From contig JAPLUR010000120.1 of the NCBI GenBank assembly GCA_026397505.1, positions 1 to 37,557 of the forward strand: a stretch of DNA of 37,557 bases, read 5' to 3'. Under the pieces are notes generated by a model, which had not been told where the DNA came from, made no database searches, and saw only the letters and a list, made by a program, of their open reading frames with translations. The translations under genes were made by a program, and so were the position numbers. Origin of the DNA: Candidatus Zixiibacteriota bacterium. GTDB taxonomy: Bacteria > Zixibacteria > MSB-5A5 > GN15 > PGXB01. Positions 5,987 to 36,482 of the stretch are shown piece by piece; within the stretch, counting starts at the first letter, position 1; the number at the start of each line of letters is the position of its first letter.

Positions 5987-8900
5987 TTATTCTTTGTATC
6001 TATCACCCGACACCCAGCGTTTGTGGGGGATTCTTTTGGTTGGTGCGCCCGGAGGTGTGGTGACTATGATTTTATTAAGGGGGTGTGATTTTATTCGTTT
6101 CTTAATATATGCCACGTCCGCTTTGGTCAGCGACTTAGTGTTATCGAAAATGATTTCGTCGAGTTCTTCCTCTTTTTCGTGGAGTTTGTCAAGAAGCAGC
6201 GGCTTTTCATCGAACCACGCCTGCATTTTTTCCAAAGCGAAAAGGAGAATCTCTTTGTCAGCGGGAATAGGAAATCGCTCCAGATAGCCCTTGGACAGTT
6301 CTGGGGCATCAATCAATTCGGAGTAAGATAAGATAAACTGAAGGGTTATTGGATCGCCCTTAATTAATCCCATTTTTTCACCACCGACAAGATTCCCCGA
6401 AATATCTAAAGAAGCCCGCATGGTAGCAATGGGCTCAATATATCCGCTCAGATCTGAATTCGGCAGTAGTCCAAAAGGAATGGTCTTTACATCCGTAATT
6501 TTATTTATGTCGCTTAATAACCGTATGTCTCCATCGAGAATCTTCATTGATATCCGGGCAAATTCCTCATTTAACTTAGCATATGTTGATTTCTGTACAG
6601 CTTTCCAAAGATGCGGGTCCAAGGGGAGGCGGTCGATTACTCGGCTATACATCGTCGAATAGAATTCCTGGACAACGCCGGAACGCAATATTAATGCGGC
6701 ACTAAATCTATTAAGATTGTTGTTCAATAGGCATATTAGCATATCATAATCAATTTTGAGACCTTTCGTTGGACGAACGATCATCACAGTATTCCTGCAA
6801 GCGAACTGCTTATTGTCAAATCCGAGCAGATTTTCCACAAGAGCGGCTTGGATTGTTCTTGATATGCGTGGTAGCAGTACAACCGGCGGCGCAAAAAATT
6901 CAGGCGGTTTAAAATCGGAAATAAGCTCCTTCATATAATTAAGATATCGCCCTTGCCATCTAATCACCCAATTTCTTAATTCTCGGCCATCAAGAAGCGG
7001 GACTGGATTCTCAAACTCATCTGCATTGTCAGAGATCATTTTCTGTCCTTGCGCCTTATCACGCAAAGCTAGACCATAATTTGCCTCGAAAATTCGCTCT
7101 CCTTGAAACAATTTTGAGAATATAACTAAATCCTCTTTTTGAATCTCCACGCGCCACGAATTATCCAAGTCTTTTGTTAAGTCAAGCCAATCCTTCTGTC
7201 GCACCGTACTGGCAGGCCGCTTTCGTTTCAAATCAGCAATATCTTCCAAATCATTTATAATTTCCACTTCCGATTTCGGCGTGACATCTGACTTCTTCAC
7301 GACAACAATAATGGGATTTGTCGAAGCTTCAAATACTCTGATACTTTCGAGGGAGACCGCTTTTTCAATTTGATATTGGGCAATGAATTGCCGTACCTTC
7401 TCGCTGGCGCCCGAATCGGCAATACCCAGCGATACGATTATGCCCATTCTGCCGCCGTTTTCAAGATAATCAATGCCTTTTCGGAGGAAGAAGGTATACA
7501 GGTCGGTATTGCCTTTAGCCACATCGGCGAAAGTTTCTTTATAGAGATTTCGGTAATCCTCGGGAAGCCGTTCGTTACGGACATAGGGGGGATTGCCGAC
7601 CACCCATTTGAACGTGCCCAAATCTTCGGTTATCTCAAAGCTCTGTACAAATTCAGCCGTCCTATCTTCATGAAACAATTCCAGTGCCTCTGCCGCCGGT
7701 GGCATAGAGACTAATGAGTCGGTCGTATATATGGGGATCCGTTTAAGCTCAAAGCTGGGCAGCTTCTCTTTGGCCTCAAGATAAGTCTCAAGAATGACAA
7801 AGAGCATATTCATTTCAGCGATATGAGTAGCAAAGGGGTTAATATCGAGACCAACAATATCCTGTAATGCCTCCAGGCGGAGGTCGGGGCCTATCCCTTT
7901 CTTCTTTAATTGCTCCAGACGCATCCGGGCTGCCGGCACAAGAAAGCCGCCGGAGCCGCATGCAAAATCCAATAATTTGCCTTCACCGGGGTAACCGACC
8001 GACCTGAGAATATACTCGGCGATTTCCGGCGGGGTGTAAAATTCACCAAGGCGCTTCCTCTTTTCAGCCGGCAGGTATTCCTGATAAAGGTCGGCCAGGC
8101 AATTTGAGTCGATACGCGAAAGATCGAAGGAATTCAACAGGTAGAAAATATCTTCCAGAAGATTATTAAGGTCGCCGTCACTATCAATGTACCAATCGAA
8201 GATATTGGCTTCAAAAAAATGCGAATAGATTTCGCCGGTATCTTTGAAGGCGATACGCAGCAGCTCTTGATATTTATCTTTGAGATTCGTTACGAATTTT
8301 CTCCAGGCATGTATTCCACTGTTGGAAATCTTCCTTTCCACCAGTTTCTTGTCTTCGGCAATGCGGATGAAAAGAATGCGATTCAAAGCCGCGTATGCAA
8401 CGTCAGTACAATATATCTCTCTGATTTCATCTTCCCGTTTCTTAAGATCACTGGAAGGCGATTTGGAAAAGGGCTGGAAATGCGAAAATATCTTATAGGA
8501 ATTATCGAATATCTCACGGGCCACCTTATATTTCTTATTTAAAAGCTGCTTGATCTGTATATACTGCCTGTGGCGGCGTTCATAAAATTCGGGCTTAACC
8601 CCGTTTTTCTGCAAAGCGTTGAAAGCCGCATCAAGCGGATCCAACTTTCGGCGATATTCTGCATATTCCAGTTTATATCCTGCAAAAGCCAATTCCACAT
8701 ATTTGATAAGGCGGTCAGAAGAATATCGTAGAATCTTGATCAATTTGTCCAGGTTGGGTTGGTTCTGGCTGTCCACTTTAATCGAACCGCGCCTTAATTG
8801 TCCTTCTCGGAACTTTGCGAGGTTTTTCCTGTTAGTTAAGTACTGCGCATGTAACGTCTGGAAAAAGGCGTCCTCGGTAATTACGGGATCCAAAATCTCC

Positions 8901-9256
8901 AATTCCGTTATGAAACCTCCGAAAGGATCTAATATTCTTATTCGTTGCTTTGAAGCAAGCATCACATATTGTTCGCCGCCCTCCAAATATCCAAGGGCCT
9001 GATCAAGAGTCTTCTGGGAATCAATACTCCTATCTGTTGTCTTTGTCTCCACGATAAAATAGGGAATGAGATTTTCCGAAATTATCCTGAGGTCTGTTCT
9101 GTCTCTTTCGAACTTAACTTGGCTTTCTTTGTATCCCAACCCTTTTAAAAATAGATATCCTCTAAGCGCTACGCGCCATTCATATTCATTCGCTTTCGGA
9201 TTGTCGTCTAACCACTTTCTATAATCAGATTGCCACTTCTTCAGCTTTTCGACCAT
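5987..9256 (-). CDS. Type IIG restriction-modification enzyme (Eco57I-like)
   Basis: One 1089-residue polypeptide appears to hold nuclease, methylase and target recognition. The N terminus has a PD-(D/E)xK-like site: Asp55 and the strand leading to E70-T-K72, in a domain like type I HsdR N termini. The helical middle leads to LGEFYTPPEIA (about 403-413). The SAM motif DFACGSGGF (430-438) and catalytic NPPY (555-558) mark an N6-adenine methylase. The C-terminal ~450 residues are a TaqI/Eco57I-type specificity region. I chose the ATG at 9254-9256, not one 24 bp upstream: it has GGGAG 7 nt before it and starts 2 bp after the secA stop. No separate methylase or specificity gene is adjacent. The target sequence cannot be read from the protein. 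Confidence 0.88.
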   Translation of the reverse strand: MVEKLKKWQSDYRKWLDDNPKANEYEWRVALRGYLFLKGLGYKESQVKFERDRTDLRIISENLIPYFIVETKTTDRSIDSQKTLDQALGYLEGGEQYVMLASKQRIRILDPFGGFITELEILDPVITEDAFFQTLHAQYLTNRKNLAKFREGQLRRGSIKVDSQNQPNLDKLIKILRYSSDRLIKYVELAFAGYKLEYAEYRRKLDPLDAAFNALQKNGVKPEFYERRHRQYIQIKQLLNKKYKVAREIFDNSYKIFSHFQPFSKSPSSDLKKREDEIREIYCTDVAYAALNRILFIRIAEDKKLVERKISNSGIHAWRKFVTNLKDKYQELLRIAFKDTGEIYSHFFEANIFDWYIDSDGDLNNLLEDIFYLLNSFDLSRIDSNCLADLYQEYLPAEKRKRLGEFYTPPEIAEYILRSVGYPGEGKLLDFACGSGGFLVPAARMRLEQLKKKGIGPDLRLEALQDIVGLDINPFATHIAEMNMLFVILETYLEAKEKLPSFELKRIPIYTTDSLVSMPPAAEALELFHEDRTAEFVQSFEITEDLGTFKWVVGNPPYVRNERLPEDYRNLYKETFADVAKGNTDLYTFFLRKGIDYLENGGRMGIIVSLGIADSGASEKVRQFIAQYQIEKAVSLESIRVFEASTNPIIVVVKKSDVTPKSEVEIINDLEDIADLKRKRPASTVRQKDWLDLTKDLDNSWRVEIQKEDLVIFSKLFQGERIFEANYGLALRDKAQGQKMISDNADEFENPVPLLDGRELRNWVIRWQGRYLNYMKELISDFKPPEFFAPPVVLLPRISRTIQAALVENLLGFDNKQFACRNTVMIVRPTKGLKIDYDMLICLLNNNLNRFSAALILRSGVVQEFYSTMYSRVIDRLPLDPHLWKAVQKSTYAKLNEEFARISMKILDGDIRLLSDINKITDVKTIPFGLLPNSDLSGYIEPIATMRASLDISGNLVGGEKMGLIKGDPITLQFILSYSELIDAPELSKGYLERFPIPADKEILLFALEKMQAWFDEKPLLLDKLHEKEEELDEIIFDNTKSLTKADVAYIKKRIKSHPLNKIIVTTPPGAPTKRIPHKRWVSGDRYKE

Positions 9257-9258
9257 TT

Positions 9259-12200
9259 TTATTCTCCCGCGCCGTGGCACTTCTTGTATTTTTTCCCGGA
9301 ACCGCAGGGGCAGGGGTCGTTGCGGCCCACTTTCTCGGCCTGCCGTTTGAACGGTTTGGCTTTGCCTCTTTGCGACGCCTCGGCCATCGGATTGGCCTCA
9401 TCGGGCGGTCGGGCCACACCGTAACCCATGCCGGTCGTCTCCTGGTGCGAGGCTATCAGCGACTGTTGATGCATCTCGCGGCGGCGCTCATCCCGGGATT
9501 TCTCCGGCATATTGACCTGAAGTTTGAACGCCATGCCGACTATCTCCTTGTCGACCATCTCGATCATTTCGGCGAAAAGGCGATATGCCTCGCGCTTGTA
9601 CTCCACCAGCGGGTCGCGCTGGCCGTAAGCGCGCAGGCCGATACCGGTCTTGAGCTGATCCATCTCGTACATATGGTCGCGCCAGTGTTTGTCAATCGTC
9701 ATCAGAACGGCATAACGTTCGAGCCGCCGCATGATATCCTCGCCATAGGCCCGTTCTTTCTGGGCATAGAAATTGAGCACTCCCTGCTGGAGTCTTTCGA
9801 AAAATGATTCATGAGTCAAAGCGGTGATTTCATCCTGCTTCAACTCCAGATTCATGAGGAAAGTATGCAGCAATTCACCCTTCAATCCGGTCCATTCCCA
9901 ATTCTCGGGGTACTCTTTTTCCGGGCAGTATTTTGCAATCATGGTCTCCAGTACCGAATCGATCAATTCCAGCACTTCTTCCTTGATTGAGGTGCGTTCC
10001 AGTGCGGCCAGGCGGCGGCTGTAGATTACCTCCCGCTGGGAATTCATTACATTGTCATAGTCGAGAGTGTGTTTGCGGATGGCGAAGTTCTGAATCTCGA
10101 CCCGCTTCTGCGCCCGCTCAATCGCTTTGGTGACCATGGGATGAGTGATAACCTCGCCCTCCTTCACGCCGAGGCGATCCATTATCCGCCCGATACGGTC
10201 GGAACCGAAAAGGCGCATCAGGTCATCTTCAAGCGAAAGGTAGAAGTGGGAAGAGCCGGGGTCTCCCTGACGGCCGGAACGGCCGCGCAACTGGCGATCG
10301 ATACGGCGCGACTCATGGCGCTCGGTACCGATGATATGCAATCCACAGGGGACATTCTCGCGGCATTTCAGTTCCTTAAAATAAGGGCAGATTTCCTCGT
10401 CGGTGCGCGGATCCAGAAGAGCGCAATTCTGATGTTTGACCACCCCCGGCCCCAGTTTGATATCGGTACCGCGGCCGGCCATATTGGTGGCAATCGTTAT
10501 CGATTTGGCCTGCCCCGCCTTGGAGACAATTTCCGCTTCCATCTGGTGGTATTTGGCGTTGAGAACATTATGCGGTACGCCGGAACGTTTTAGCATGCGC
10601 GATAACGTCTCCGATACTTCGACCGATATGGTTCCGACCAGCACCGGTCGCCCGGAATTGTAGCATTCGATTATCTCTTCGATAATCGAATTATATTTTT
10701 CACGCCGTGTGCGATAAACGACGTCGTTGAAATCTATCCGACGCACCGGTTCGTTGGTCGGGATCGAAACAACATCAAGCTTGTAAATATCCCATAATTC
10801 CTGTGCCTCGGTTTCGGCGGTACCGGTCATACCGGCCAGCTTGGCATACATGCGGAAATAGTTTTGCAGGGTGATAGTGGCCAGGGTCTGCGATTCCCCT
10901 TCGATTTTGACTCCCTCTTTGGCCTCAATCGCCTGATGCAGTCCGTCGGAGTAGCGCCGGCCCGGCATCATCCGCCCGGTGAATTCATCGACAATCAGAA
11001 TCTTGCCGTCCTGCACGACATATTCGACATCCTTTTCAAAAAGGGTATAGGCTTTCAGAATCTGGCTGATGGAATGCACTTTTTCCGAGCGCTCGGCATG
11101 CAGGCGGTACAACTCGTCAATCCGCCGCGTTTTTTCCTCCGGCGAAAGGGAGGTGTCTCCTTCAATTTCGGAAAGCACTTCGGATATATCGGGAATGGTG
11201 AACAGCTCCTGTTCGGCTTTGGAAAACTGGGTGCGGCCGTGGTCGGTCAGATTGATGGAGTTTTCTCTCTCATCGATAACATAGTAAAGAGATTCATCGA
11301 CCTCATATAATTTCTTTTCCCTGAGATAATCCGATTCGACCGAGGTGATCAGGCTTTTTACGCCCGCCTCTTTGACCATTTTAAGATACTTTTTGTTCTT
11401 GGGAGCGCCGCGGCCAACCGCCAGAAGGAGCCGCCCGGCTTCATAGCTTTTGTCGCCGTCACTTTCGCCCAGGAGCTTCTCAGCCGCCGCAATTTTCTCA
11501 TTTATCAGGTTGGACTGTTTGCGCACCAAAGTGGCCACCACCGGCTGCATTTCGGCGAAACGCTGGTCGAGGGTGCTTTCCACCTGCCCGGAGATGATTA
11601 ACGGGGTTCGGGCTTCGTCAACCAGGACCGAGTCAACCTCATCGACAATGGCATAATGATAACCCCGCTGAACCCGGTCATCGACCGTCTGAGCCATGTT
11701 GTCGCGAAGGTAATCGAATCCAAACTCGTTGTTGGTACCGAAGGTTATATCCTTCTTATATTCTTCCTTCCGCTGAGCGTTGTCCATCTCGTTCTGGATG
11801 CAGCCGACCGAAAGCCCCAGATATTCAAATATCTTCCCCATCCACTGGGAGTCGCGCTTGGCCAGATAATCATTAACGGTGACAATATGCACCCCTTTCC
11901 CGCTCAGGGCATTCAGATAGGTCGGGAGGGTCGCTACCAGGGTTTTACCTTCACCGGTGGCCATTTCGGCGATTTTCCCTTGATGCAGAACGATGCCGCC
12001 GATAAGCTGGACATCATAGGGGACCATATTCCAGGGGGTATCAATCCCGGCCACATCCCAGCTTTGGCCGCAAAGACGGCGGCAGGTCTCTTTAACCACA
12101 GCAAAGGCCTCGGGCAGAATGTCATCCAACGTTTCCTCTTCCTCCAGCCGTTTCTTAAGCTCTTCTGTTTTTCCCTTAAGCTGTTCTTCTGTCAGAGCTG

Positions 12201-16830: not shown

Positions 16831-16855
16831 TCACATAAAGATGCTTCCGAATGCA

Positions 16856-16882
16856 CGGCAGGCCTGGCGGCCTGCCGTTTTT
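16856..16882 (+). terminator. Rho-independent terminator after the GH57 gene
   Basis: A perfect 9-bp GC-rich stem, CGGCAGGCC / GGCCTGCCG with loop TGGC, is followed directly by TTTTT. It begins 26 bp after the stop codon and separates the rsgA-MCE-GH57 group from the dsr-like operon. Confidence 0.9.
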
Positions 16883-16980: not shown

Positions 16981-17009
16981 TTGAGAAATTGGGCGATTGT
17001 TTGTATATT
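16981..17009 (+). promoter_or_regulatory. Promoter of the dsrC-dsrM-dsrK-like operon
   Basis: TTGAGA (16981-16986), a 17-bp spacer and TATATT (17004-17009): 5 of 6 matches in both boxes with optimal spacing. Transcription would start near 17016, just ahead of the AAGGAG site that serves dsrC. Confidence 0.65.
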
Positions 17010-17039: not shown

Positions 17040-17360
17040 ATGTCTGACATCGAAGTGGACGGAAAAAAATTGGAGTTGAATGAAGAGGGATTCTTACTCA
17101 ACCCCCGGGAATGGGACAACAAGGTGGCTGAAGCCCTGGCCAAATCGCAGGAGGGGTTGGAGCATCTCAGCGAGGAACATTGGGCGGTGATAAATTTTAT
17201 CCGCAACCATTACCTCGAAACCACTATGGCTCCAATGGTTCGTTCGATCTGCAAGACCACCGGCTTCCCTTTGCGAAGAATTTATGAATTGTTCCCCTCC
17301 GGTCCGGCCAAAGGGGCCTGCAAACTTGCCGGTCTCCCGAAACCCGATGGCTGCGTCTAA
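17040..17360 (+). CDS. dsrC: DsrC family sulfur-carrier protein
   Basis: 106 residues from the ATG at 17040, which has AAGGAG 8 nt upstream; longer in-frame starts reach back toward the terminator and are unlikely. The C-terminal arm has both redox cysteines of true DsrC, Cys94 and the penultimate Cys105, 11 residues apart, within KGACKLAGLPKPDGCV. TusE-type relatives keep only the last one. DsrC carries sulfur as a persulfide or trisulfide between sulfur enzymes and the membrane DsrMK complex. The two genes behind it encode DsrM- and DsrK-like proteins, which supports this role. No dsrAB sulfite reductase genes are in the window. Confidence 0.93.
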   Translation: MSDIEVDGKKLELNEEGFLLNPREWDNKVAEALAKSQEGLEHLSEEHWAVINFIRNHYLETTMAPMVRSICKTTGFPLRRIYELFPSGPAKGACKLAGLPKPDGCV

Positions 17361-17366
17361 GGCAAG

Positions 17367-17999
17367 ATGCTTCAATCAATACTCCGCGGGGGGGTAATCG
17401 TTTCCGCCGCTTTCGCCCTCATCGCGCTTATGATCCTGATAGTTCGGACTTTTTCATTCGGTAAAAAGCCGTACCATTCCCAACCTGCGGGAAAACCATT
17501 AAATGGCGTAATTTATGCTTTCGGGCGGGGGATGATGCCATGGGAAAAAGAGAGCGCCGGGAAGCATCTCCCGACCTTTGCGGCCGGAATCATTTATCAC
17601 CTGGCCATTTTCGCCGCACTTCTTTACTTAATAACATCATTGCTTGAAATGGCCATTCCCGCGACTGTGCTATTGGCCTTGCGGGTCATTCTTTTGGCCG
17701 GCCTTCTCTGTGGGTTTGCGCTTCTGCTCAAGAGGATTATTATTCCGTATATGCGGGGAATCAGCTGTTTTGATGATTTCGTGGCCAACATGTTCGTCAA
17801 TCTCTTTCTCGGGGCTGCTTTAGCAGTAACATTGGCGACTGGGCTTAAATCGCTCTTTTTCATTATGGCGATAACTCTCTTTATCTATATCCCGATGGGC
17901 AAAATCCGACATTGTTTTTATTTTTTCTATACCCGGGCATTTTTCGGCATCTTTTTCGGGCGGCGCGGAGTCTTTCCTCATCCCTCGCGGGAGGTTTAG
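17367..17999 (+). CDS. DsrM/NarI-like membrane cytochrome b subunit
   Basis: 210 residues with about five hydrophobic helices (roughly 8-30, 70-90, 96-117, 135-157, 160-180) and a cytoplasmic C-terminal tail. Histidines in GIIYHLAIF and MGKIRHCFYFF are candidate haem b ligands, and the GKIRHCFYFFYTR..FGRRG ending is characteristic of NarI/DsrM/HdrE-type quinone-reactive subunits. It is shorter than typical DsrM and closer to NarI in length. It lies 6 bp after dsrC and 3 bp before the Fe-S subunit gene, so the three are one operon. The likely job is to pass electrons between menaquinone and the DsrK-like subunit. Confidence 0.8.
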   Translation: MLQSILRGGVIVSAAFALIALMILIVRTFSFGKKPYHSQPAGKPLNGVIYAFGRGMMPWEKESAGKHLPTFAAGIIYHLAIFAALLYLITSLLEMAIPATVLLALRVILLAGLLCGFALLLKRIIIPYMRGISCFDDFVANMFVNLFLGAALAVTLATGLKSLFFIMAITLFIYIPMGKIRHCFYFFYTRAFFGIFFGRRGVFPHPSREV

Positions 18000-18002
18000 C
18001 TT

Positions 18003-19337
18003 ATGACGGATATGACCGACAGGAAAGACCCTCTTGATGCAAGAATCGATGCTATCGGCCCCGAAGAGATTCGGAAAGCTCTGCAGATTCTTTCCGAAAA
18101 GATCGACAGCCGGGCGGCGGCCTATCTCAACACCTGTGTGCACTGCGGCCTTTGCGCCGATTCATGCCATTATTACCTGAGTAATGGGGAAATTGAATCG
18201 GTTCCGGCCTACAAACTGAATCTGCTGCTGTCGGCTTTCAAACGGTATTTCACTTTTCTGGGCAGGCATGCTCCCTCTCTGGGCGGGGCGAAAGATTTGG
18301 ACCGGGAAAAACTCCGTGAATGGATTGATTCTCTTTACGGTAGATGCAGTCTTTGCGGCCGTTGCACCATAAACTGCTCGGTCGGCATCGATATTTCCCG
18401 CCTTATCCGGATCGGCCGGAGCGTGCTGGCCTCGATTGATCTGGTGCCTCCGGATCTTCAAGCGACCGTCAATACCGCCCTGGAAAAAGGGAATAACATG
18501 GGAATTCCCCGGACCGAATGGCTGGAGACAGTGCAATGGCTGGAGGAGGAACTTCAGCAGGAGGTGAGGAATGCTGCTGCACGGCTTCCCATTGATCAGA
18601 AGAATGCTCGATATTTATATACGGTCAACCCGCGGGAGCCGAAGTTTTTCCCTCTTTCGCTTGTGGCGACCGCCAAGATATTTTTCGCCGCCCGCGAAAA
18701 CTGGACTCTGGCTTCCGATTTCTATGATGTCACTAACTATGGTCTTTTCAGCGGCGATGATGCCGCCTCCGGTCTGATTTCCAGTCGTCTTCTGGAAACA
18801 ATGAAAAGACTTCAGGCGGAGACCCTGGTTTTGGGAGAATGCGGGCACGGCTTCAATTCTAACCGCTGGGAGGCCCCCGAATGGCTGGCATCAAAGCAGG
18901 ACATCCCAACCATAAGCATCTTACAGGTTATCGCCGATTATATCCATCAGGGGAAAATCAAACTTGATCCAACCCGCAACCGGAAGACTGTCACCCTGCA
19001 CGACCCCTGCAACCTGGTGAGAATGGGCGGCGTAATCGAGGAGCAGCGTTTTATCCTGAAACACGCTGTCGCCAATTTCGTTGAGATGTACCCCAATCGG
19101 GAGAAAAATTTCTGCTGTGGCGGCGGCGGCGGACAGCTTTCCATGAGCCGCTATGCATCGCGAAGGTTAAAGGCGGGGGGGATAAAAGCAGAGCAGATCA
19201 AGAAGACCGGCGCCAGGATAGTCGTTGCCCCCTGTCACAATTGTATTGATCAGTTGAGCGAATTGAATAAAGAATACAAGCTCGGAGTGGAGATCAAAAC
19301 CCTTTCCGAGATTGTGGCCGCTGCCCTGGTAATTTAA
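18003..19337 (+). CDS. DsrK/HdrD-like iron-sulfur protein (heterodisulfide reductase family)
   Basis: 444 residues. Two 4Fe-4S motifs lie in the N-terminal third: Cys45, 48, 51, 55 and Cys115, 118, 121, 125. The C-terminal half has the catalytic cysteine set of the CCG domain: GECGHGF, HDPCN, NFCCGGGGG and APCHNC, which binds the special 4Fe-4S centre that cleaves disulfides in HdrD and DsrK. No transmembrane segment is seen, so it should dock on the preceding membrane subunit from the cytoplasmic side. With DsrC as the first gene, the natural substrate is the DsrC intramolecular disulfide or trisulfide. TmcB or a generic HdrD-like electron-transfer role are alternatives. Confidence 0.88.
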   Translation: MTDMTDRKDPLDARIDAIGPEEIRKALQILSEKIDSRAAAYLNTCVHCGLCADSCHYYLSNGEIESVPAYKLNLLLSAFKRYFTFLGRHAPSLGGAKDLDREKLREWIDSLYGRCSLCGRCTINCSVGIDISRLIRIGRSVLASIDLVPPDLQATVNTALEKGNNMGIPRTEWLETVQWLEEELQQEVRNAAARLPIDQKNARYLYTVNPREPKFFPLSLVATAKIFFAARENWTLASDFYDVTNYGLFSGDDAASGLISSRLLETMKRLQAETLVLGECGHGFNSNRWEAPEWLASKQDIPTISILQVIADYIHQGKIKLDPTRNRKTVTLHDPCNLVRMGGVIEEQRFILKHAVANFVEMYPNREKNFCCGGGGGQLSMSRYASRRLKAGGIKAEQIKKTGARIVVAPCHNCIDQLSELNKEYKLGVEIKTLSEIVAAALVI

Positions 19338-19342
19338 AGCGA

Positions 19343-20509
19343 TTACCGTTTCTTCCGGCTTTCGGCGATTTCCCTGACCGCCTTAATGGCGGCCCTGATA
19401 TCATCCTCAGCATTAAACGGGCCGATTCCAAATCGAACCGAGCCATGAATCTTATCGGTGCCCAATTGCTCATGCACCAGCGGGGCGCAATGGAGCCCCG
19501 TGCGGCTGGCGATATTGTAGTCGACATCGAGCATGGTACCGGTATCGGCCGCCTCCAGTCCATCGATATTGAAAGCGAGCACGCCGATATGGTCGTTTAA
19601 ATCTTCCTGACAGTATAGTATGACCCCCGGTATGCTTTTCAGGCCGTCGCGAAGCATAATGAGCAATCGTGACTCCAGCTCGTGAATGTTGTGCATTCCC
19701 CTTTTTTCAATCCAATCCACTCCGGCTTTCAGGCCGGAAATGCCCGAGAGGTTGGCGGTGCCATATTCAAGGCGATAGGGATACTCCTCCAGATGCGTAC
19801 GAATCGCCGAGCGCACGCCGGTGCCGCCGGCGCGGGTATGGCTGATTTCCACTCCATCGCAGACATACAGTCCTCCAATACCCGTCGGTCCCATGAGCGA
19901 CTTATGCCCAGTGAAAGCGACCACATCAATATTCATTGCCTGAACGTCAATCGGGATTTTTCCAGCCGTCTGTGAGGCATCGATAAGGAATGGAATCCCT
20001 TTTTGGCGGCAGATGGCCCCGATTTCCCCGACCGGCTGAACTGTGCCGATCACATTCGAAGCATGGTTGACTGCCACCAAGCGGGTATTTTTCTTGATCT
20101 TCTTGGCGATATCCTCCGGATGGACAAACCCTTTGCTGTCAAACGGGATATAATCTAACTCGACTCTGCTGTCCCTATAGAGATGATAGAGCGGCCGCAA
20201 CACCGAATTATGCTCGATATTGGTTGTGATAGCGTGATCCCCTTCCTTAAGCAGTCCGAAAATGGCCAGATTCAGCGCATCCGTGGCGTTATAGGAAAAA
20301 ATGAGTCGGTTGGGGTCAGTACCGTTAAAAAATCTGGTGAGAAGTTTTCGGGTATCCTCCACAAGTCCGCCGGCCACGATGCAGAGGTCATAGCCGGAGC
20401 GTCCGGGGTTGACTCCATAGTTGCGGTAAGAGTAATCCATCATTTGGTAGACTTCTTCCGGTTTTGGGAATGTTGTCGCGCCGTTGTCGAGATAAACTAA
20501 TTTGTCCAT
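19343..20509 (-). CDS. Cysteine desulfurase family protein (class V aminotransferase fold)
   Basis: 388 residues from the ATG at 20507-20509 (protein begins MDKLVYLDNGATTFPKP, the classic NifS/SufS opening). The PLP lysine is Lys203 in TGHKSLMGPTG, with His100 and Asp177 (IDASQTAG) positioned for PLP binding. The candidate persulfide cysteine is Cys341 in RTGLHCAPLVHE. This pattern matches the bacterial subgroup annotated as cysteine desulfurase family protein rather than canonical IscS. The ORF could be extended 50 codons upstream, but that would run through the promoter at 20544-20572. The gene is convergent with the dsr-like operon (5 bp between stops). It could supply sulfur to DsrC; that link is inference. 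Confidence 0.9.
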   Translation of the reverse strand: MDKLVYLDNGATTFPKPEEVYQMMDYSYRNYGVNPGRSGYDLCIVAGGLVEDTRKLLTRFFNGTDPNRLIFSYNATDALNLAIFGLLKEGDHAITTNIEHNSVLRPLYHLYRDSRVELDYIPFDSKGFVHPEDIAKKIKKNTRLVAVNHASNVIGTVQPVGEIGAICRQKGIPFLIDASQTAGKIPIDVQAMNIDVVAFTGHKSLMGPTGIGGLYVCDGVEISHTRAGGTGVRSAIRTHLEEYPYRLEYGTANLSGISGLKAGVDWIEKRGMHNIHELESRLLIMLRDGLKSIPGVILYCQEDLNDHIGVLAFNIDGLEAADTGTMLDVDYNIASRTGLHCAPLVHEQLGTDKIHGSVRFGIGPFNAEDDIRAAIKAVREIAESRKKR

Positions 20510-20543: not shown

Positions 20544-20572
20544 ATTATAACGCCCACCGCCTTAGAAGTCAA
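20544..20572 (-). promoter_or_regulatory. Promoter of the cysteine desulfurase gene
   Basis: Minus strand: -35 TTGACT (20572-20567), exactly 17 bp, then a perfect -10 TATAAT (20549-20544), 35 bp before the start codon. It is one of the best promoter matches in the window and fixes the start of the gene. Confidence 0.75.
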
Positions 20573-26809: not shown

Positions 26810-26833
26810 ATGGATGAAAATCACAATGATTAA
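26810..26833 (+). other. Seven-codon ORF stub at the edge of the AT-rich block
   Basis: AAGGAG (26793-26798) is followed by ATGGATGAAAATCACAATG and TAA, encoding MDENHND. It looks like the start of a plus-strand gene that was cut off by the AT-rich transporter block, whose last gene ends at 26830 on the other strand. A leader peptide is a weaker alternative. Confidence 0.3.
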
Positions 26834-27579
26834 ATAATCCAGCCGAGGCTCTCTTGAATTTTTTTCACTTCTGACCCTTGATACCATTTCCCATCTCGAT
26901 TTTTCCTTGGAGTATTTATAATAATCTCGTTTTCTCCAAATGGCATGTCACCTGATAACACAATAACTCTATCTGCGGCCATCATTATTTCATATGGTTG
27001 ATGAGTACTTCCAATTACACCTAGTTCTTGATTATCAACTTTGTTAAAGATTTCTCTCATGATGTTCTTGCGCCGATTAAAATCGATACTATGAAATGCT
27101 TCATCTAGAAGTAACAAATTTGGATTTATTGATAATGCGCGAATTAACACTGTTCTATTCAGCATTCCTCCTGAAAGCTCAAATGGTTTTTTCTCTAAAT
27201 CTATCTTAGTAAGTTCAGCGATATTCGCCAAACGATATATCTCCTCTTCGGATACAGTAACATTTCTATAGAATGCTTCGCGTTGAATATTCTTTCTAAT
27301 ATTAAGCCAGGGCAACAGGGTTACTCGTTGCATAACATATGATAAAAATCTTCCTCCAATTGGACTCTCTTTAAGAGTTACTACTCCTGTAGAAGGTCTT
27401 AGAAAACCTGCTATGATATTTAAGATAGTAGTTTTGCCACACCCACTTGGACCAAATAAATAACAAATTTCGCCCTTTTTAACTTTTAAATCCTCGACGA
27501 ATATCTCAAACCCACCAGATGTTTTGGGATACCCAAACCTTATGCCTTCAAGATTAACCAGTAAGTCATTCTCAATCAT
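26830..27579 (-). CDS. ABC transporter ATP-binding protein (SsuB/TauB/ThiZ-like)
   Basis: 249 residues with a complete nucleotide-binding domain: Walker A GPSGCGKT (43-50), Q-loop Gln84 in MQRVTLLPW, signature LSGGM (135-139), Walker B LLLLDE (155-160) and switch His193 in STHQP. The MQxxxLLPW segment is typical of importers for nitrate, sulfonates, taurine and thiamine precursors. It is the last gene of a four-gene minus-strand block, 33 bp after the membrane methyltransferase gene. The AT-rich composition and weak ribosome site differ from the core genes around it. It would power the permease encoded at 30240-30911. Confidence 0.9.
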   Translation of the reverse strand: MIENDLLVNLEGIRFGYPKTSGGFEIFVEDLKVKKGEICYLFGPSGCGKTTILNIIAGFLRPSTGVVTLKESPIGGRFLSYVMQRVTLLPWLNIRKNIQREAFYRNVTVSEEEIYRLANIAELTKIDLEKKPFELSGGMLNRTVLIRALSINPNLLLLDEAFHSIDFNRRKNIMREIFNKVDNQELGVIGSTHQPYEIMMAADRVIVLSGDMPFGENEIIINTPRKNRDGKWYQGSEVKKIQESLGWII

Positions 27580-27612
27580 AACTATTTTTTCTTTTACCGA
27601 CTATAATAAGAA

Positions 27613-29196
27613 TCAGGCTCTCTTTATAACGTATATAATTTCATCATTTCGCAAAACACCGTTATCACTGCTGGTATCAATTAATTCCCTTGCGAAACCT
27701 TTCGCCGTTTCATTATTCTGTATGATAGCAATCGCGGCTGCTAATGTGTTTTTTCGTTCTTCATGAGATTGCTCTATTTGGAAACCCTGTGCACTCCATT
27801 TTGTAATTTGGGGAATTTTGACATTTGTAACCTCTTCCAATCTGTATTTCTCCAATTCTTCGTTCATATGATTGATCCAATTATAAGCTGATTCTCTCTC
27901 TAACCTAAAATCTAGATTAAAGAAAAAAGAATTGCTGGCATAGCTCCGTATAACCAGAATTGGTGATTCTGCTGGTTTCCATTTAATCCGAAGGATCGGG
28001 ATCCACTTGAAAGGTATCCGCCTCAATATCCAAATGATAACGCTTCCCAATTTGCCGTAAAAACCTTTTTCTGAAAAGGAAGACAGAACCTTTTTTCTTA
28101 AGTGATTCGTATACAACACGTTTGAAGCATACACAATGTCATACTTTCTAATATTCCAAAAAAAGAATTTTGTCCATTTTGCCTCTGCCAATTTTACAAG
28201 TTCACTTCTTTCCCGCATAACATAAAATTGCTTCCATCTTTTTGCGGCATCATGCATTTCAATACGTACGTCCTTCATATCCGCAAAGATCAAAAACTCG
28301 CGTATTCTTCTTCCGTTTCCGCATCCAAAGTCCAGTATTTTTAATTCCTTCTTGTTTTTGAAAACATCCGCAACCTGATCTATCTTGGCGAGCGGAACTC
28401 CATCAAGTTCTGTGCAATCCAAATAGTTTTGATAGTGCTTAGGATAATGCTTTCGATAGCCTATTTTCTTAACAGTAAATATGATAAACCACCCTATAAC
28501 TGCTGTTGCCACGGCAATGTCTTTTGCATGAATGTTTTCATAAATTCCATATATATCACGAATAAATGGTATCTCTATAGGATGGTAAAAGCTTAATACT
28601 AATATAAAAATGGCACAGAAGTCAAAAAACATCCAATAATTATGGTATCCATTTAGACTACTTTTTTTTGATGAGTAGTCATAAATTAACCAACATACAT
28701 ATACAACAAGGAATAATATTGTTTCTGCGATTTCAATAAAGCTAACGGAACCGTTATTAACCAGAATGCGGGTAATGCCAAACATATAACACACACAAAG
28801 AGCTAATAATATACCAAATGTGAAACGATATTCCTTTCTAAAAGGTTTTGATAAACCAAATTGATAAACAACGATTAGTAGATATAAACCGTGTATTACT
28901 ACTAGAATCGTTGCTATCTTTTGTCGATAACGATTTACATTAAGACTTTGATAGGAAAGATTTATCCACATCTGAAATTTTTTATCTCTTAAATCGTCGG
29001 CAAAACGAATATCTATTGTTCCGTAACCATCCCTAAATGATGAGGTGAAAGCATATCCTCTATCAGCGTCTTTATCAAAGATTCCAGAATCTTGGTAAAC
29101 ATACTTTGCCTGAACTGCCTCATATTGACGTACTGCCATAATGCATGCGGTCGCAATCATCAAAAGGAAGACAATTATGATTTTGTACCAATACAT
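27613..29196 (-). CDS. Membrane protein with cytosolic SAM-dependent methyltransferase domain
   Basis: 527 residues. Hydrophobic helix 1 (about 4-21) is followed by a ~70-residue outside loop (25-92), five more helices (about 94-113, 125-145, 155-173, 187-205, 227-243) and a cytosolic domain. That domain begins with class I methyltransferase motif I, ILDFGCGNGRRIREFL (287-302), and an acidic motif II region (EMHDAAKR); the YDIVYASNVLYTNHL segment fits motif IV/V. The small region after it is rich in Arg, Trp and Lys. I know no family with this fusion. It sits between the binding-protein and ATPase genes of one ABC transporter, so it may modify the imported compound or sense it through the outside loop. 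Confidence 0.8.
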   Translation of the reverse strand: MYWYKIIIVFLLMIATACIMAVRQYEAVQAKYVYQDSGIFDKDADRGYAFTSSFRDGYGTIDIRFADDLRDKKFQMWINLSYQSLNVNRYRQKIATILVVIHGLYLLIVVYQFGLSKPFRKEYRFTFGILLALCVCYMFGITRILVNNGSVSFIEIAETILFLVVYVCWLIYDYSSKKSSLNGYHNYWMFFDFCAIFILVLSFYHPIEIPFIRDIYGIYENIHAKDIAVATAVIGWFIIFTVKKIGYRKHYPKHYQNYLDCTELDGVPLAKIDQVADVFKNKKELKILDFGCGNGRRIREFLIFADMKDVRIEMHDAAKRWKQFYVMRERSELVKLAEAKWTKFFFWNIRKYDIVYASNVLYTNHLRKKVLSSFSEKGFYGKLGSVIIWILRRIPFKWIPILRIKWKPAESPILVIRSYASNSFFFNLDFRLERESAYNWINHMNEELEKYRLEEVTNVKIPQITKWSAQGFQIEQSHEERKNTLAAAIAIIQNNETAKGFARELIDTSSDNGVLRNDEIIYVIKRA

Positions 29197-29242
29197 ATTA
29201 TTTCATAAATATTCGCATCAGATTCATCCTAGATGTCTGATC

Positions 29243-30247
29243 CTATCTGCATTTAGCCGCCAATGCATCATACCTATAATAACTCTTTGCCAATTGCCGA
29301 TTCCGTTCTGATATATCCTGCTTCCATAGGTCAATGTTTTCCAGATTGGCTTTGCTTTCGGCATTCAGTCTTGTAATTTTATCAATTCCATAAATTATCC
29401 TATCTTCATTCAAACTCGGTTCAATTCCCGCTAGTACTTTTGCAGCATCTATTTTTGAAGCCGCACCTTTTTCATATCCCTCCATTGTAGCTTTAGCAAA
29501 ATGAAACATTTCACATTCGGTGAGATAATCCTCGGATGTGGAATCAATTGGCGCAAAGGCCAGTACTAACCCATAGCTATAAAGCGGTATATTAAGATTT
29601 GAATACAATATAGAAACATAATCCTTACCTTTTGCCTGCAAGTCGACGCCATGATTTGTAATATAACCGAGTATGGCATCCACCTTGCCGGCAACTAAAA
29701 ACTCCGCTCCACCCCATCCGACGGGCACTTCAGAAATTTCGCTTTTATCAATATTCGCATTCCGCAATGCAGTTAAATATTGAGTGTATGTTATGCTTTC
29801 AACGTTTACTCCTATTTTTTTTCCTTTTAGGTCATCTAGACTTCTAACAGGTTTATTTGCTAGGCTTAAAATGGCAAATGGATTAAATTTTAAGAGTGGC
29901 ACACAAAGTGAATACTTCCGTCCTTGCGCGACCTGCGTCAGAATATTATCCGATGTTGTTGTTCCGACCTTGACAGCGCCAAGGCTTATTTCTCCTGCCA
30001 CAATTGGAGCACCTTTGCCATAAATGATTTCAACGTCAAATCCGGCTTCTTTATAGAACCCTTTTTCCTTAGCATAAAATATTCCAAAGTATGTTGGCTC
30101 AGGTGTCCAATCAATTTTCAGGATGATATGCTTTCGAGTTTTTATTATTGATTCGCCCGAACATGAAACCAGAAGACATAACCCCACTGAATAACACAGA
30201 AAAGTGCTAATTAGTATTAATACTGAACCTAAACCTTTCTTACTCAT
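29243..30247 (-). CDS. ABC transporter substrate-binding lipoprotein (NMT1/THI5-like)
   Basis: 334 residues with a lipoprotein signal: lipobox LVSC, Cys29 to be lipidated. The mature N terminus, DWTPEPTYFGIFYAKEKGFYKEAGFDVEI-like, is the hallmark of the NMT1/THI5/SsuA fold used for thiamine-pyrimidine precursors, sulfonates and nitrate. The start has AAAGGAGG 7 nt upstream, within the end of the permease gene, and the two genes overlap by 8 bp. The ligand cannot be named: no thiamine, taurine or sulfonate genes and no riboswitch accompany it. It should be anchored on the outer face of the inner membrane. Confidence 0.88.
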   Translation of the reverse strand: MSKKGLGSVLILISTFLCYSVGLCLLVSCSGESIIKTRKHIILKIDWTPEPTYFGIFYAKEKGFYKEAGFDVEIIYGKGAPIVAGEISLGAVKVGTTTSDNILTQVAQGRKYSLCVPLLKFNPFAILSLANKPVRSLDDLKGKKIGVNVESITYTQYLTALRNANIDKSEISEVPVGWGGAEFLVAGKVDAILGYITNHGVDLQAKGKDYVSILYSNLNIPLYSYGLVLAFAPIDSTSEDYLTECEMFHFAKATMEGYEKGAASKIDAAKVLAGIEPSLNEDRIIYGIDKITRLNAESKANLENIDLWKQDISERNRQLAKSYYRYDALAAKCR

Positions 30248-30911
30248 AAATAGACCTCCTTTGAGCTAGATTGACTTCCAATATACTCAAGAGCCAATAT
30301 ACTACTATCCCTTGAGCTGCAAGTAAGCCTGTACATATGTATATTGTTGGTATATCAAAATTTGACTGCGCAACTAATAGTACATACCCCATTCCTTTAT
30401 CTGGAGAAATAAACTCAGCTACAACAGCTCCTAAGCTTGCAAGAGTGAAACCTACCTTTGAAGAAGCAGCCAACTGAGGTAGGGAATATGGGAATTTGAT
30501 ATCGAGTATTACCTGCCATTTCGTTGCTCCGCATATGCTGGCATAGTTTATTAGTCTCTGAGGAACGGTTTGAAGACTCTCTGAATAAGATGCAAACATA
30601 GGAAAAAATGATATCAATGTTGCCACAATAAATTTGGGGAGATAACCGGAGCCAAACAGAACTATAAATAGTGGTGCTATTGCTTGCAGGGGAAAAGATT
30701 GACTGACACTTATCAGGGGTGCTAACGGTTTCCTTAATAACGGAAACCTGGCCAAGAAGAATGATATCGCTAAAGTGAACATTAGAGCAAATATTGCGGC
30801 GGCAAGAGCCACAAGGAAGGTCGAGCTCCAATGATACAGAAAATAGTCATGCCTTTCAATGATCAGTTTGATTACTTCTTTTGGCGATGGGAAAAGCTGA
30901 AAAATATTCAT
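30240..30911 (-). CDS. ABC transporter permease (SsuC/TauC/ThiX-like)
   Basis: 223 residues from the ATG at 30909-30911. Longer in-frame starts (back to 30980) would place the promoter at 30949-30977 inside the gene, so I prefer the shorter form. Several transmembrane helices surround the EAA loop (ICGATKWQVILDIKFPYSLPQ), the ATPase docking site of BPD-type permeases. It is the first gene of the four-gene block. A homodimer together with the ATPase encoded at the end of the block and the lipoprotein would make a complete importer. Confidence 0.88.
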   Translation of the reverse strand: MNIFQLFPSPKEVIKLIIERHDYFLYHWSSTFLVALAAAIFALMFTLAISFFLARFPLLRKPLAPLISVSQSFPLQAIAPLFIVLFGSGYLPKFIVATLISFFPMFASYSESLQTVPQRLINYASICGATKWQVILDIKFPYSLPQLAASSKVGFTLASLGAVVAEFISPDKGMGYVLLVAQSNFDIPTIYICTGLLAAQGIVVYWLLSILEVNLAQRRSIYE

Positions 30912-30948
30912 TTCGACTACCCGACAATCCACTGGAAATTTTGAATTA

Positions 30949-30977
30949 AATTTAGGCAGTAGCATGGAAAAAGTCAA
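30949..30977 (-). promoter_or_regulatory. Promoter of the ABC/methyltransferase block
   Basis: Minus strand: -35 TTGACT (30977-30972), 17-bp spacer, -10 TAAATT (30954-30949). Transcription would start about 30 nt before the permease ATG at 30911 and can cover all four genes, since no terminator is seen between them. Confidence 0.5.
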
Positions 30978-31139
30978 CACTTAATTTCGCCAAATGGACT
31001 GGACCAATAAATGGTGGAAGGTCATCTTCATGGTATCATAGAGTCTTCAGTATCGGTCCAAGGTGGCAGCCAGTCTCCCCTTTGCCGGACAGCGCCGGGG
31101 TCTCCTCAGCTTGCCGCAGGTTAGCCAAGCATGGGCAAT

Positions 31140-34940: not shown

Positions 34941-35096
34941 TGTCTGCAGTTCTAATATCGGGTGGAAATTTAGCAAATTGAGGCTCAAAGCGCAATTGCT
35001 TTGTCAAATTTGTCGCCTGAAACGGCATCTTTACTTGACTTCCGGACGCTTTTCTCCTTTTCTTGAGAAATAATTTTTGTGTATGAAGAGAAATTT

Positions 35097-36482
35097 ATGA
35101 CTGACGCTGCATTTAAAGGTTACAAGGGAAAGGCCCGCGAGGTTCTTCAGGCGCTTGGCGGGCGGGTTTGGGCTAATGTTGTCCTGAAAACCAACGAGGG
35201 GGACTTTGAGGGGGTCATCCTGCCCCGGTCAGAGACCGCCGATGGCGACCATATCGTTCTGAAGATTAAGTCCGGTTATAATATCGGCATTCGCGCCGAC
35301 CGTATCAACGAAATTACGGAAACCAGTTATAAAGAAGCAATCTACAAAATTCCCGAGAAAGAGTTCCCGGTCAGCCCGGATAAGCCGAGCGTGACCCTTT
35401 TGGGAACGGGCGGGACTATTGCCTCGCGGCTGGACTACCGCACCGGCGCCGTGATTCCGGCCTTTACCCCCGGTGAGCTTTATGGCGCCGTCCCGGAACT
35501 GGCCGATATCTGCAATCTGGAGACTCTGAAACTCTTTGGCGTTTTTTCCGAAAACATGGGGCCGATGCAATGGATCACCCTGGCCGAGGAAATCGGCCGC
35601 CAGATAGAGAAAGGGGTGCATGGGATCGTTATCGGTCACGGTACCGACACCATGCATCATACCTCGGCTATTCTCTCCTTCATGGTGCAAAACAGTCCCG
35701 TACCGATTGTCATGGTCGGCTCGCAACGCTCCTCCGACAGGCCCTCATCCGATGCCGCTTTCAACCTCCGCTGTGCCGCTTTTACCGCCGGACATTCCGA
35801 TATTGCCGAAATCATGGTCTGCATGTTTGGCCCGACCTCCGATGAATATAATCTTCTTCACCGCGGCACCCGGGTGCGCAAGATGCATTCTTCCTATCGC
35901 TCCACTTTCCGCACCATCGGCGATGTTCCCATTGCCATGGTTACTCCCAGCCAGGTAACGCCGATCAAGGCCGATTATAAGCGGCGCCGGGACGACCGTC
36001 AGGTCAATGTCAATGCGGCCTTTGAAGAGATGGTTTCCATAGTCTACTATTATCCCAATATGCGCCCCGACATTATCGAATCGCTTATCGACAACGGCTA
36101 CAAGGGCATTATTATCGCCGGAACCGGTTTGGGGCATGTCAATAAACGGCTTTATCCGGCGCTCAAAAAAGCGTATGACAAAGGCATCACCGTCTTTATG
36201 ACCGTTCAAACCCTCTGGGGTTATGTGCAGATGTATGTCTATGATACCGGGCGCGACATGATGGAACTGGGCGTCGTGCCGGCGGGGAATATGCTTCCGG
36301 AGGTGGCCTATGTCAAACTCGGCTGGGTTCTGGCCCAGACCACCGACCCGGAGAAAGTCAAAGAAATGATGCTTGCCCCTATCGCCGGTGAAATAACCGA
36401 ACGTGAACCTTTTGATGGTTATTTGATATTACAGGGAGGAATACCGGAGGTCGAGAAATTTATCGGGCAGTACCATCGCTGA
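35097..36482 (+). CDS. GatD-type glutamyl-tRNA(Gln) amidotransferase subunit / L-asparaginase
   Basis: 461 residues from the ATG of MTDAAFKGYK; a GTG six codons upstream is possible. The N-terminal ~75 residues form a small beta-barrel (VLKTNEGDFEGVILPR) as in archaeal GatD and not in ordinary bacterial asparaginases. The asparaginase domain follows: nucleophile Thr107 in GTGGTIAS and the Thr183-Asp184 pair in GHGTDTMHHT. Archaeal GatD liberates ammonia from glutamine for GatE, which amidates Glu-tRNA(Gln). GatE is not adjacent. If it is absent from the genome, the protein is better called a type I-like asparaginase/glutaminase. Length and domain order fit GatD well. Confidence 0.82.
   Translation: MTDAAFKGYKGKAREVLQALGGRVWANVVLKTNEGDFEGVILPRSETADGDHIVLKIKSGYNIGIRADRINEITETSYKEAIYKIPEKEFPVSPDKPSVTLLGTGGTIASRLDYRTGAVIPAFTPGELYGAVPELADICNLETLKLFGVFSENMGPMQWITLAEEIGRQIEKGVHGIVIGHGTDTMHHTSAILSFMVQNSPVPIVMVGSQRSSDRPSSDAAFNLRCAAFTAGHSDIAEIMVCMFGPTSDEYNLLHRGTRVRKMHSSYRSTFRTIGDVPIAMVTPSQVTPIKADYKRRRDDRQVNVNAAFEEMVSIVYYYPNMRPDIIESLIDNGYKGIIIAGTGLGHVNKRLYPALKKAYDKGITVFMTVQTLWGYVQMYVYDTGRDMMELGVVPAGNMLPEVAYVKLGWVLAQTTDPEKVKEMMLAPIAGEITEREPFDGYLILQGGIPEVEKFIGQYHR

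Follow-up and report, generated by a model that had tools for sequence, protein, structure and literature searches.

The analysed stretch of DNA, hereafter the window, spans 37,557 nucleotides and carries at positions 17040-19337 a tightly spaced run of genes for DsrC, a 210-residue membrane protein (M), and a 444-residue iron-sulfur protein (K). The dsrC open reading frame (17040..17360, + strand) encodes a protein of 106 residues with the C-terminal tail KPDGCV, which passes the TIGR03342 profile (109.6 bits against a cut-off of 53.5) and scores 124 bits with PF04358. As originally predicted, it contains both redox cysteines, i.e., C94 (codon 17319-17321) and C105 (codon 17352-17354). An assignment as TusE was ruled out, since the TusE equivalog score is under the cut-off (75.7 against 191 bits) and the first cysteine is present. 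M is encoded at 17367..17999 and K at 18003..19337, both on the + strand, and these coordinates bear out the 6-bp (17361-17366) and 3-bp (18000-18002) gaps of the proposed three-gene operon.

A Shine-Dalgarno-like AGGAG lies just 5′ of position 17040, a terminator-like stem (16855-16878) follows the upstream GH57 gene, and a weak candidate promoter (TTGAGA-17-TATATT, 16981..17009, + strand) matches the consensus at 10 of 12 positions. The stem and the promoter-like site are compatible with dsrC, M, and K forming a separate transcription unit. The single promoter put forward originally thus has one candidate site upstream, but such matches around the operon (7, compared with 3.9 +/- 2.0 in shuffles) were not clearly above chance. 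None of dsrJ, dsrO, dsrP, dsrA, and dsrB was seen in the window, in agreement with their earlier reported absence from the locus. Elsewhere in the window, we noted an ABC transporter (26830-30980, - strand) with SaoA/SaoP-like and SsuA-type-like components, all under cut-offs, whose substrate is possibly a sulfur compound; an Eco57I-like methylase/restriction protein gene beside secA (5987-9280, - strand); and an archaeal-type GatD gene in this bacterium (35079-36479, + strand; 521.7 bits against a cut-off of 324).

Identity of the K and M subunits

K comprises two 4Fe-4S motifs (Fer4_8) and a C-terminal CCG domain (PF02754), the single one that Pfam recognised. Against NCBIfam profiles it scored 308 bits for HmcF, 302 for TmcB, and 239 for DsrK, all under the respective equivalog cut-offs of 750, 735, and 400 bits, and three other module Ks gave the same or nearly the same order. 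No grouping with lactate or glycolate dehydrogenase subunits, a possibility raised earlier, was found (66 and 43 bits only). Cysteines 45/48/51/55, 115/118/121/125, 280, 336, 371/372, and 411/414 were conserved in 99-100% of 82 sequences. In a 42-row tree, the module Ks formed a single clade (99/97), apart from the DsrK clade of relatives (100/100; these reference proteins reach 333 bits, close to the DsrK cut-off without passing it) and on the side of TmcB-like proteins and of the longer Ks described below. The TmcB-like protein of a relative itself reached 717 bits, against the cut-off of 735. The phylogeny that had been suggested as a check therefore places K towards TmcB/HmcF rather than DsrK, in a clade of its own and below every equivalog cut-off. 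With a K that neither belongs to the DsrK clade nor reaches the DsrK cut-off, the complex is not the stripped-down DsrMK of the original prediction, and the label “DsrMK without JOP” was ruled out by the same scores and tree. The two subunits are indeed shorter than Zixibacterial DsrM (310-328 residues) and DsrK (537-549 residues), as had been remarked, but their lengths are typical of TmcC/HmcE and TmcB/HmcF, and M and K are therefore not truncated DsrMK.

The only PDB sequence match to K was mycobacterial EtfD (PDB 9ojn; phmmer E 2e-10), whose iron-sulfur/CCG part can be aligned to K but which is one fused protein of 1042 residues; we know of no link between EtfD and DsrC or a desulfurase. 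M-K pairs with a longer K (~590 residues) occur at further loci (L155-L162), mostly in dsrAB-bearing Zixibacteria; these Ks form their own clade near module K, and several of the loci continue with a PAS-like protein.

M matched HmcE and TmcC weakly (22 bits each with the NCBIfam profiles), and a Pfam search recognised no family in it. Its AlphaFold model (pLDDT 87) was compared with known structures, and the best eight PDB matches were all NarI (probability 1.00, E ~0.01-0.07, TM ~0.5). From this predicted fold and its modest scores, M may be a NarI-like membrane partner of K. Two of its histidines, H78 and H182, are invariant, and a third, H67, is present in 73/77 sequences. With two invariant and one near-invariant histidines, not four, at least one b heme in M is plausible and a second uncertain, and any quinone chemistry of M is putative.

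Occurrence of the module and of sulfite reductase genes

A scan of species genomes returned 80 related loci, in which K is 51-70% identical over nearly its full length. Nearly all loci with long enough contigs have the same dsrC-M-K order and spacing, a recurrence far beyond chance. The hosts belong to about ten phyla: Zixibacteria, Aminicenantes, Acidobacteria/Holophagaceae, Eisenbacteria, Fermentibacteria, Krumholzibacteria, Latescibacterota, Bacteroidales (Bacteroidota), Planctomycetota, and one Bacillota bin, with the close relatives in the collections falling in Candidatus Zixiibacteriota. As most hosts are metagenome-assembled genomes (MAGs), an isolated odd host could reflect a binning error; Geothrix limicola, in contrast, is a cultured isolate and carries both the module and the adjacent desulfurase described below. 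Farther neighbours in Aminicenantes (deacylase, cupin, FolK-like) look lineage-specific, and a cluster of opposite-strand open reading frames near the loci was dismissed as an overlap artefact. In the open-access literature, most subscription papers lying outside the search, we found no description of a module combining a desulfurase, DsrC, and TmcBC-like subunits. A few assemblies had already been observed to contain DsrMK but no DsrAB (PMC10504309), and no desulfurase linked to such a DsrMK was found in the open-access literature.

The assembly from which the window derives (3.44 Mb, 147 contigs, 100% complete, 3.6% contamination) has no match to PF01077 (NIR_SIR) or to dsrA (TIGR02064). The genome-wide search for dsrAB proposed with the original prediction thus did not turn up a sulfite reductase domain of any type. 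The same genome holds a single DsrC, with no second copy, and a single protein of the DsrK/TmcB/HmcF type at E <= 1e-30, its other CCG proteins lying outside this type. Without a sulfite reductase, the genes must serve something other than the respiration of sulfate or sulfite, which supports the original suggestion of such a use. Among 132 genomes of the phylum, 11 contain the module (K > 650 bits), and dsrA was found in 0/11 of these compared with 53/121 of the others (Fisher p = 0.003, uncorrected for kinship). PF01077 was also absent from 49 of the 50 genomes reached through module loci; these are mostly MAGs of unstated completeness, yet missing contigs are an unlikely explanation for all 49. 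The sole match, in G. limicola, consists of two domains in one 729-residue frame, unlike the separate dsrA and dsrB. Together, the 0/11 and 49/50 results argue strongly against DsrC substrates made by DsrAB.

The module DsrCs have C94 in 68/73, C105 in 73/73, and D103 in 73/73 sequences. The DsrC cysteine preceding the penultimate one has been described as limited, with few exceptions, to organisms that also have DsrAB (PMC3397948). The module contradicts this rule on a large scale, with both cysteines in 68/73 DsrCs and no DsrAB where genomes were tested. Only the KPDGCV tail distinguishes module DsrC from the classical DsrC of relatives, which ends in KPTGCV; Cys71 was rejected as a module-specific residue, the classical protein having it too. 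The five DsrCs with alanine in place of C94 (L048, L049, L051, L058, and L062) form one Aminicenantes/Acidobacteriota clade with large assemblies, corresponding to one event. Other DsrC arrangements were seen in Zixibacteria relatives, most of them with dsrAB. Fusions of two DsrC domains (~218-286 residues, several copies per genome; L024-L041) have a second domain that matches to about position 99 only and seems to be without the C-terminal cysteine tail. In dsrAB-bearing relatives (L164:3841-7035 and L166:2989-7336), a single DsrC (103 residues in L164), a membrane protein, and a DsrK-like protein are followed by such a double-DsrC protein.

With regard to possible redox partners, MenA is present in the genome (127.7 bits against a cut-off of 102), MqnC was not found, and MenB had no match over the cut-off; a naphthoquinone pool is therefore likely, its synthesis route being only partly traced, and menaquinone may be the partner of the complex, as originally suggested. 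On another contig (C74; locus L209), a gene cluster called by eye reads as HdrA, a fused HdrC-HdrB, and MvhD and adjoins genes for a 2-oxoacid:ferredoxin oxidoreductase, heme o synthase, and alternative-complex-III-like proteins. These Hdr-like proteins are possibly another partner of DsrC.

A cysteine desulfurase family gene beside the operon

The strongest clue to function, absent from the original prediction, is an adjacent gene of the cysteine desulfurase family (TIGR01977; 19343..20659, - strand), which converges on K at a distance of 5 bp. Its start is probably at 20509, and a candidate promoter (TTGACT-17-TATAAT, 20544..20572, - strand; 11 of 12 consensus positions) lies 35 bp before this inferred start. 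The protein passes TIGR01977 (428 bits against a cut-off of 377), a hypothetical equivalog, so that cysteine desulfurase activity is here predicted from the family; the selenocysteine lyase SclA profile gave 306 bits against a cut-off of 525. The pyridoxal phosphate (PLP) lysine and the catalytic cysteine were both present in 67/67 sequences.

Of the 77 loci that could be assessed, 68 have a TIGR01977 gene directly adjoining the operon, and in the other 9 none was found nearby, while 5 further contigs were too short to judge. The gene lies convergently downstream in 42 loci, co-directionally downstream in 21, and co-directionally upstream in 5, and mapping these arrangements on the K tree requires at least 7 changes. 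The loci share gene content, catalytic residues, and a lasting physical linkage in the absence of sulfite reductase, and there is good support for the four genes being linked. Two loci (L077 and L078) have kept M-K with neither DsrC nor desulfurase in view. In the Ala94 clade, the adjacent desulfurase is missing from 3/5 loci and kept in 2/5. The genome under study has two other strong class-V/desulfurase matches (contigs C88 and C52), for which reason the operon-adjacent enzyme looks dedicated. Among the 132 phylum genomes, TIGR01977 followed the presence of Dsr-type systems, being found in 52/64 with dsrA or the module and in 8/68 with neither (Fisher p ~1e-16, uncorrected for kinship); in the dsrAB-bearing Zixibacteria examined, the gene does not adjoin the dsr genes. 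In three loci of Aminicenantes/Acidobacteria (L053, L069, and L073), K is separated from the desulfurase by a further PLP-dependent, cysteine-synthase-like gene (PF00291), and such a gene stands elsewhere in or beside several more loci.

Possible roles of the module

We propose that desulfurase, two-cysteine DsrC, K, and M form a sulfur-relay and redox module that passes cysteine sulfur through DsrC to sulfide, with quinol driving the re-reduction of DsrC, a reading whose chances we judge to be about evenly balanced. The desulfurase would take sulfur off L-cysteine, hold it as an enzyme persulfide, and hand it to C105, the penultimate DsrC cysteine. Attack by C94 would then release H2S and leave a C94-C105 disulfide, or alternatively a trisulfide might be handed on. 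K, as a putative CCG-type iron-sulfur thiol-disulfide oxidoreductase, would reduce the DsrC bond with electrons drawn from quinol via M, for a net reaction of cysteine + QH2 -> alanine + H2S + Q. Sulfur transfer, the direction of electron flow, and the sulfide product are deduced from the chemistry of the protein families, and the purpose of such a cycle is likewise putative. The loading step has a precedent in vitro, where E. coli IscS and cysteine persulfurate A. vinosum DsrC at the penultimate cysteine (PMC3397948). Given that 2/5 loci with Ala94 still keep the desulfurase, the C94 step cannot be universal; this clade is a useful natural variant, though no proof.

By profile scores, the module belongs to the DsrC family and TIGR01977, and curated cut-offs exclude DsrMK, Tmc, and Hmc. 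It resembles DsrMK(JOP)-DsrC in its cytoplasmic two-cysteine DsrC, CCG-type iron-sulfur protein, and cytochrome-b-like membrane subunit but differs by having no DsrAB, no DsrJOP nearby, a K outside the DsrK clade, and an adjacent desulfurase. TmcBC and HmcEF of Desulfovibrio-type sulfate reducers provide the best matches to K, weak matches to M, and similar subunit sizes; unlike them, module K is far below the cut-offs of 735 and 750 bits and dsrC lies inside the operon. The immediate neighbours of the operon are the GH57 and desulfurase genes, and no multiheme cytochrome c (TmcA), TmcD, other Tmc/Hmc subunit, or TusA/TusBCD gene was found beside it. As in IscS-TusA-TusBCD-TusE, a cysteine desulfurase is predicted to feed a DsrC-family protein, whereas here DsrC has two cysteines, the enzyme belongs to TIGR01977 rather than IscS, and the partner is a membrane oxidoreductase. 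In HdrDE of methanogens, too, a CCG iron-sulfur protein and a membrane cytochrome b together act on a disulfide; the carrier in the module would be a DsrC protein disulfide instead of CoM-S-S-CoB, and K has one Pfam-recognised CCG domain. Overall, the module would begin as the Tus relay begins and end as the Dsr pathway ends.

The same genes can be read in other ways. DsrC might be a dithiol-disulfide electron shuttle between a cytosolic HdrABC-type complex and K-M, the desulfurase serving, e.g., DsrC maturation. A CCG-type K, a DsrC with both cysteines, the Hdr-like cluster by the 2-oxoacid oxidoreductase, and the proposal that Flx-HdrABC of D. vulgaris has DsrC as its disulfide partner (PMC6687939) would all fit, but a shuttle leaves unexplained both the adjacency of the desulfurase through at least 7 rearrangements and the fact that L077 and L078 show neither DsrC nor desulfurase, and we consider it rather unlikely. 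The desulfurase linkage would fit equally well with a biosynthetic relay like IscS-Tus, in which the desulfurase loads DsrC for a thiolation enzyme encoded elsewhere and K-M merely re-reduces the DsrC disulfide, TusE being homologous to DsrC and receiving its sulfur from IscS (PMC3397948). Yet TusE-type proteins are without the first cysteine (PMC3397948), a residue that 68/73 DsrCs retain here, and the TusE score falls far under its cut-off; moreover, a membrane quinone complex would be unusual for tRNA thiolation, and no acceptor enzyme is conserved near the loci, all of which makes such a relay distinctly improbable.

K-M might also work oxidatively, taking electrons from DsrC thiols or persulfide into the quinone pool while sulfane sulfur is stored or exported. 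Mycobacterial EtfD, the PDB match to K with its related architecture, passes electrons into quinone. The heme o synthase gene in the genome makes an oxidase possible, and DsrMKJOP has been proposed to run oxidatively in sulfide oxidation (PMC6018796). Against this, sulfur from a desulfurase is already oxidised (sulfane), and its further oxidation would need, e.g., DsrAB, which is absent; we regard an oxidative module as very unlikely. The presence of dsrAB in close relatives of the same family could finally suggest that the module is a decaying relic of sulfate respiration since lost, but K forms a clade separate from DsrK, and its ~50-70% identity across phyla with invariant catalytic cysteines contradicts decay, so that this explanation deserves hardly any weight.

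Several points count against the relay cycle from cysteine to sulfide as well: a simple desulfhydrase could convert cysteine to sulfide, 9/77 loci have no nearby desulfurase, TIGR01977 genes are not beside the dsr genes of dsrAB-bearing Zixibacteria, and the HdrA/HdrB-like proteins of this genome might use DsrC differently. A bolder version of the cycle, which we advance tentatively as a minority possibility, would make cysteine a respiratory electron acceptor: desulfurase-loaded DsrC would be reduced from the quinone pool with release of H2S, perhaps conserving energy, in many uncultured phyla without sulfite reductase.

A DsrC that has both cysteines has counted as the companion of DsrAB and served as a marker of sulfate/sulfur respiration. 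Because the module has DsrC as a core component in about ten phyla, in carrier genomes without dsrAB, metagenome inventories may misread it. The module offers a testable function for DsrC beyond sulfite reduction, as an acceptor of cysteine sulfur and a link to the quinone pool, and G. limicola, as a cultured carrier, makes direct testing of this idea possible. These results suggest that DsrC, although known as a hallmark of sulfate respiration, is also widely at work in organisms incapable of such respiration.
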